From an uncultured Spirochaetota bacterium (lineage in GTDB: Bacteria > Spirochaetota > Brachyspiria > Brachyspirales > Brachyspiraceae): a DNA stretch of 64,000 bases. A program made the position numbers and the translations under genes. This document shows positions 36,722 through 37,362 of this stretch, piece after piece (within the stretch, counting starts at the first letter, position 1; each line of letters starts with the position of its first letter). The notes under the pieces were generated by a model. That model saw only the letters and a program-made list of their open reading frames with translations. It searched no databases and had not been told where the DNA came from. The stretch spans positions 62,001 through 126,000 of the forward strand of contig CALXQJ010000010.1 in assembly GCA_944390575.1 (NCBI GenBank), in the 5' to 3' direction.

Positions 36722-37024
36722 TTATTTATGATTGTTTATAAGCATTTTAAATTTATAAATAGCATAATAAAGTGCAAGCCTTAAATAATCATCATCATCA
36801 TATTTAGTTCTAATATATCTTTCACTAATTATCTGATACCAAGCTTCATTAATAATACTAATCCAAAAATTATAAGCAGTATATAAACTTAAGTAGCAAT
36901 TATATTTTTCTAAATAGCAAAAGCTTGTACTTTTTATTTCTATATTCTTAAAAGCATATTCAACTAATGCTTCTATTTCTTTTTGTTCTAAATAGTTAAA
37001 AACTATATTGCTACTCTCTCGAGC
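36722..37024 (-). CDS. Frameshift extension of the tail-assembly chaperone (gpGT-like T part)
   Basis: An open frame of exactly 100 codons beginning A-R-E-S-S-N-I-V-F-N and ending M-L-I-N-N-H-K, with no ATG, GTG or TTG anywhere near its 5' end. It is in the -1 frame relative to the preceding gene and is preceded closely by a stop, so it can only be reached by frameshifting. The fused product would be about 213 residues. It is helical, rich in Tyr, Ile and aromatic residues, and ends the particle cluster. In tailed phages the T part recruits the tail-tube protein to the tape measure. Confidence 0.75.
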   Translation of the reverse strand, partial: ARESSNIVFNYLEQKEIEALVEYAFKNIEIKSTSFCYLEKYNCYLSLYTAYNFWISIINEAWYQIISERYIRTKYDDDDYLRLALYYAIYKFKMLINNHK

Positions 37025-37362
37025 AAAAAACTTTTAACAACCTGTGCAAACTCATTAATATCTCTTGTAGTCCATTCATCAAGTAAATATGTTGCTGATG
37101 AATCATTAATTTTTATATCAAGCCATTTAAAAATATCATCATCTGTTTTATTATTTTCTTTATTTTTTACATAATTTATATTTTCATTAAAAGTTGGTCT
37201 ATTTATTGTTATAGTATCTGTATCTAAGAATTTTTTTCCTAGAGTAGAGCGACTATATACTTTTGTTGGTATAAATCTATTATTTTCTATTTCTTTATAA
37301 AAAGTTTCTTCTATGATGTATTTGTTAAAAAAATCTTTACATTTGAATGTATTTGTTTGCAT
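37003..37362 (-). CDS. Tail-assembly chaperone (gpG-like)
   Basis: 119 residues, soluble and acidic. It lies directly after the tail-tube candidate, where siphoviruses and gene transfer agents have their chaperone, and its 3' end carries a -1 slippery heptamer followed by an open -1 frame. No sequence family is recognised, as is usual for these fast-diverging proteins; assignment rests on position and frameshift layout. Ribosome site AGGAG before the ATG. Confidence 0.7.
   Translation of the reverse strand: MQTNTFKCKDFFNKYIIEETFYKEIENNRFIPTKVYSRSTLGKKFLDTDTITINRPTFNENINYVKNKENNKTDDDIFKWLDIKINDSSATYLLDEWTTRDINEFAQVVKSFLLERVAI
37024..37030 (-). promoter_or_regulatory. Programmed -1 frameshift slippery heptamer
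   Basis: Minus strand T TTT TTG, in the correct zero-frame phase (AGT TTT TTG). Slipping by -1 gives TTT TTT GCT and enters the 100-codon frame. The zero-frame stop is seven codons downstream. Confidence 0.75.

Follow-up and report, generated by a model that had tools for sequence, protein, structure and literature searches.

The analysed DNA, referred to here as the window, comprises 64,000 nucleotides (nt) of an uncultured member of the Brachyspiraceae (GCA_944390575.1, CALXQJ010000010.1, positions 62,001-126,000) and harbours a gene of two overlapping reading frames, considered here as candidate tail assembly chaperone gene of a VSH-1-type gene transfer agent (Table 1). The zero frame encodes a protein of 119 amino acids (aa), designated G, and the -1 frame a C-terminal extension, designated T. 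The 3' end of the G open reading frame (ORF) reads GTT GTT AAA AGT TTT TTG CTC GAG AGA GTA GCA ATA TAG, in which T TTT TTG (37030-37024) fits the X XXY YYZ phase exactly. Reading after a -1 slip continues as ARESSNIVFNYLEQ... for 100 codons (37024-36725) up to a TAA at 36724-36722, and the predicted G-T fusion comprises 213 aa. A stop is located directly upstream in the -1 frame; counted from there, the first ATG, GTG or TTG is codon 96 of 104. At a stop probability of 0.104 per codon (from base composition), 100 open codons have a P of ~2e-5, and the arrangement clearly exceeds what chance would give. A first-pass annotation, made from the sequence alone, had described a 119-residue gene with T TTT TTG in zero-frame phase, a -1 frame open for exactly 100 codons with an upstream stop and no early start, and a combined product of 213 residues; gene and heptamer are indeed found at 37362-37003 and 37030-37024, respectively, and the reading frames and their lengths agree with the description.

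The comparison set consisted of 26 Brachyspira genomes, 22 of which possess a homologue: a close gene is present in 21 (the window's and those of 20 relatives) and a divergent paralogue in two, one of which also has a close gene, amounting to 23 genes overall. Among the close genes the heptamer is TTTTTTG in 20 and TTTTTTA in one and is always located six codons before the zero-frame stop; their -1 frame is stop-free for 96-107 codons in all 21 cases, with the extension sharing 50-65 % identity with that of the window. Overall, identity to the window's extension ranges from 39 to 65 % (39-65 %). Identity of the two divergent paralogues is 29 % in G and 44 % in T; they retain the G/T architecture and use A AAT TTC at codon -9, which is offset upstream by one codon from the homologous place. 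The chance of an in-phase heptamer at most one codon from this place is ~0.03, as calculated from the rate of in-phase canonical heptamers in the window ORFs (1.1 % of codons; DNA of 26 % G+C). In line with the conservation for which the first-pass annotation had called, 23 of 23 genes have a canonical heptamer at codon -8 or -9, counted from the end of the zero frame, and it is the sole canonical heptamer retained in all of them.

The ratio of nonsynonymous to synonymous polymorphism (pN/pS) was determined within the two clades; it amounts to 0.17 and 0.22 for the -1 frame and to 0.10 and 0.12 for the zero frame, and the -1 extension is, therefore, selected as a protein. Its variable sites are distributed 50/34/73 over the codon positions. 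Homologues with the two frames fused into one, or with the extension missing, were not found in the set. Two observations that had been named as speaking against a frameshift, i.e. an unconserved extension and frames existing as separate genes with own starts, were likewise not made: the extension is kept as protein in all homologues, and a start codon overlapping the zero-frame stop is restricted to three of the 21 close genes (TAATG in L018 and L021, TAGTG in L020). In a wider survey of 393 spirochaete genomes, G and T occur in the identical 22; no relatives of either were found in the 367 non-Brachyspira genomes of this survey, in IMG/VR or among GenBank phages.

The order tail tube, G, -1 T and tape measure was observed in seven relatives, where a tape-measure candidate of 381-388 aa is the next gene after T (spacing 23-446 nt). 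The distance from T to the 382-aa candidate is only 23-24 nt in two genomes. The match of this candidate to a tape-measure PHROG is weak (E 0.003), and that of its paralogue of 801 aa is better (E 1e-6); as both proteins are coiled-coil-like, the matches serve as a lead. A length of ~57 nm is calculated for 382 residues (~0.15 nm each), which is close to the VSH-1 tail length of ~64 nm. In the window genome, however, T is followed by a gene for an NAD-dependent epimerase (35095-36654). The tape-measure candidate of this genome resides on contig C14 (27709-28905), separated by 27 nt from the large terminase gene upstream of it (Pfam Terminase_3). The position ahead of a tape measure, as anticipated in the first-pass annotation, thus applies to the seven relatives and not to the window genome, in which the cluster is split.

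Supported by the conservation of heptamer and extension and by the gene order in seven relatives, the locus is assigned, with a probability of about 0.87, to the tail assembly chaperone of a VSH-1-type (Brachygtaviriformidae-like) gene transfer agent, which by programmed -1 frameshifting would form G and a G-T fusion in the manner of gpG and gpGT of phage lambda. Ribosomes very probably slip back by one base at the heptamer, giving a longer second protein. Most of them would stop at the TAG at 37005-37003 and release the 119-aa G-like protein, and a minority would slip at T TTT TTG, the P-site tRNA-Phe and the A-site tRNA-Leu re-pairing on TTT TTT, to yield the 213-aa fusion. Following the lambda analogy, the G part would form a coat around the short tape measure, and tail tube subunits would be recruited by the T part of the fusion, which is scarce; both the G/GT ratio and the chaperone role are inferred from frameshifted tail assembly chaperones, to which the functional analogy is strong.

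A stem-loop 3' of the heptamer, as suggested in the first-pass annotation, is absent: folding of the 70 nt after the heptamer in the 23 genes revealed no shared structure (z -2.5 to +0.4). Six nt upstream of the heptamer, 15 of the 21 close genes carry AGGTGAT, which is complementary to the 16S 3' end (TGGATCACCTCCTTT) of the window genome. The valine codon at this site is GTG in 16 of 21 genes vs 26 of 155 other valines of the same genes, counts which are not independent as the genes are related; in the window ORFs, GTG accounts for 5 % of Val codons. In the relatives, this internal Shine-Dalgarno-like element appears the likelier stimulator, and slippage in most species is probably assisted by it rather than by a downstream hairpin.

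Several points weigh against this assignment or limit single lines of evidence. Ribosomal shift and fusion protein are deduced from sequence. A canonical heptamer anywhere in the 9-codon overlap is, taken alone, not rare (P ~0.10); it is conservation that carries the case. Of the 61 G codons with an invariant amino acid, 17 are also codon-invariant, which makes codon conservation at the heptamer mildly unusual at most. As stand-alone evidence, codon invariance of the heptamer was rejected as weak: Phe is encoded by TTT in 91 % of cases, and the last base of TTG is at the same time the first of the following -1 codon. Conserved downstream structure is lacking (z +0.43 for the fold in the window), and the Shine-Dalgarno-like element is weakened in the window species, where it reads AGGTTGT; this species may, therefore, shift less or depend on the heptamer alone. 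Furthermore, neither G nor T resembles catalogued chaperones: profile searches of Pfam, PHROGs and PDB yielded no significant sequence similarity to known tail assembly chaperones, nor did hhalign against lambda G/T and TP901-1 ORF43/44, and Foldseek/VIA detected no significant similarity of fold. The predicted structure is of good confidence for G and of low confidence for T (predicted local distance difference test, pLDDT, 85 and 70). For G, no PDB chain reached Z 2 and the best BFVD match had an E of 0.28; a 'putative tapemeasure chaperone' at BFVD rank 46 (E 2.0) was dismissed as noise.

Much the same protein products would result if RNA polymerase, not the ribosome, slipped on the T6 run and added an extra U to the mRNA, for which the six T in the heptamer of all 21 VSH-1-like copies could be taken to speak. 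A six-base homopolymer is, however, short for efficient transcriptional slippage, and A AAT TTC of the divergent paralogues contains no homopolymer run longer than three, rendering this explanation quite improbable. T might also be a separate protein instead of part of a fusion, if ribosomes reinitiated behind the zero-frame stop by translational coupling. The overlapping starts of L018, L020 and L021 are compatible with such coupling, but the other 18 close genes lack a start at this place, including the window gene with its late first -1 start, and the heptamer is retained in 23 of 23 genes; reinitiation is very unlikely. That a former single gene was disrupted by mutation or a sequencing error is hardly conceivable: an error could produce such a pattern in one genome, but here the same two frames and junction recur in 23 copies, which stem from independent assemblies, and both frames are under purifying selection.

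The frameshift may, finally, be real and yield a tail protein other than a chaperone, likewise in two forms and with a role in structure or assembly. That known chaperones match neither in sequence nor in fold is consistent with this view, which is nonetheless unlikely, as the position between tube and tape measure combined with a C-terminal -1 extension is characteristic of the chaperone family (PMC5009743). Known members of that family share little sequence.

Table 1. Features of the candidate chaperone locus and the adjoining head and tail genes; positions refer to the window
Feature	Position	Strand	Evidence
G-like zero-frame ORF, 119 aa (119 codons)	37003..37362	-	homologues in 22/26 Brachyspira genomes; AlphaFold2 mean pLDDT 85
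AGGAG ribosome-binding site of G ORF	37371..37375	-	sequence; 16S 3' end of genome contains TGGATCACCTCCTTT
Slippery heptamer T TTT TTG, zero-frame phase	37024..37030	-	20/21 close genes TTTTTTG, 1 TTTTTTA, same codon
T-like -1 frame extension, 100 codons + TAA	36722..37024	-	pN/pS 0.17-0.22 within clades
Zero/-1 frame overlap, 31 nt	37003..37033	-	limits: upstream -1 stop and zero-frame TAG
Internal Shine-Dalgarno-like remnant, AGGTT	37039..37043	-	AGGTGAT in 15/21 close genes
Tail tube protein gene, 457 aa, directly upstream of G	37385..38758	-	Pfam PF18906 Phage_tube_2, 27.4 bits (cut-off 27)
Remaining VSH-1-like head/connector cluster	38782..44009	-	weak PHROGs matches to capsid, scaffold, portal; same gene order in relatives
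ORFs of 90, 181, 124 and 100 aa	within 38782..44009	-	part of head/connector cluster
Major capsid candidate	40398-41429	-	weak PHROGs match for capsid (cluster)
Decoration/scaffold-like ORF	41442-41810	-	weak PHROGs match for scaffold (cluster)
Protease-position ORF	41835-42761	-	gene order of cluster
Portal candidate	42813-44009	-	weak PHROGs match for portal (cluster)

The tail tube candidate which the first-pass annotation had placed upstream of G is corroborated by its Pfam match (Table 1). The head genes further upstream are common to the genus in the same order, the cluster being present in most Brachyspira genomes with capsids ~90 % identical; this is what a VSH-1-type agent would lead one to expect. 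The 100-aa ORF, the product of which is lysine/glutamate-rich and coiled-coil-like, carries a tandem repeat of ~21 bp (39996-40077) at its 3' end. In several relatives a gene for a small secreted-looking protein on the opposite strand is located between tube and chaperone genes (L028:8436-8786, L027:11283-11633, L035:9020-9358).

The terminase and tape-measure stretch of the window genome (G000:C14:26329-28905; L099:2330-4906) ties the otherwise isolated Brachyspira large terminase (TerL) to the gene transfer agent through the spacing of 27 nt. Distal tail genes follow ~11 kb beyond the tape-measure candidate, near C14:39750-43041. Among the tail genes, a 291-aa protein is encoded by one ORF in relatives and by two frames in the window genome (G000:C14:39753-40639; L099:15751-16652), representing either a pseudogene, an assembly error or another recoding site. 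Two genomes, at L032 (G022:C50) and L100 (G021:C148), carry a divergent tail module, the tape-measure candidate of which comprises 800-880 aa. In G022 this module adjoins VSH-1-like head genes, the capsid of which is 85 % identical to that of the window, and no other tube/chaperone copy was found there; this points to a tail swap or a related phage.

Frameshifting of tail chaperones is known from many tailed phages and has very probably been retained across the genus by the Brachyspira agent, an unusual setting. It is likely that the present case is the first recoding described for a VSH-1-like agent, namely a selected -1 frameshift in a domesticated element, with chaperones unrelated in sequence to catalogued ones and kept even where split from the tape measure. 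Thereby, likely tail assembly chaperones and the tape measure of the agent are named, two functions missing from the literature searched. Selection on a protein part accessible by frameshifting only provides good evidence of an agent still building working tails genus-wide instead of decaying. The findings further suggest that, in Brachyspira genomes, standard gene callers overlook half of this gene or give it a wrong start. They also suggest that a fixed-ratio mechanism does not prevent a gene from becoming separated from its partner.

A family of frameshifted tail assembly genes was reportedly described by Xu, Hendrix and Duda in 2004. The lambda record contains V, G, T overlapping G, and then H, an order of tube, G, -1 T and tape measure that is widely conserved in long-tailed phages (PMC5009743). 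Lambda and Brachyspira share this order, a slip site near the 3' end of G, an extension without own start, and similar lengths (G 140 aa and T frame 144 in lambda vs 119 and 100). Different from lambda, the heptamer is T TTT TTG, sequence similarity to the lambda counterparts is not detectable, and the tape-measure candidate is short (382 aa) and, in the window genome, not adjacent. In dnaX of E. coli, -1 frameshifting is stimulated by an internal Shine-Dalgarno sequence (PMC5600365). Most Brachyspira homologues resemble dnaX in combining a slippery heptamer with an upstream Shine-Dalgarno-like element, but lack a conserved downstream hairpin and represent a gene of a different kind.

VSH-1 itself belongs to the same genus, shares capsid and tail genes with the agent described here, lacks known phage relatives, and is encoded in more than one cluster (PMC9662315; PMC3163572); the split cluster of the window genome fits the divided VSH-1 genome (cited in PMC3163572). 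The lone Brachyspira TerL has been suspected to serve the gene transfer agent, and particles of B. hyodysenteriae are reported to package random host DNA (PMC9662315). The first-pass annotation knew of no frameshift described for VSH-1-like agents, and none in a VSH-1 chaperone was found in the open-access papers searched, a scope outside which the two primary VSH-1 papers fall. The gene transfer agent of Rhodobacter capsulatus (RcGTA) is likewise a domesticated phage, the tail genes of which still include a pair of reading frames for chaperones, g10 and g10.5; these are, however, described as two genes with no frameshift mentioned (PMC11409702). For the hydrolase of a Wolbachia GTA-like element, a +1 shift has been proposed (PMC10299305), so that recoding in such elements has been suggested before, though for another gene.
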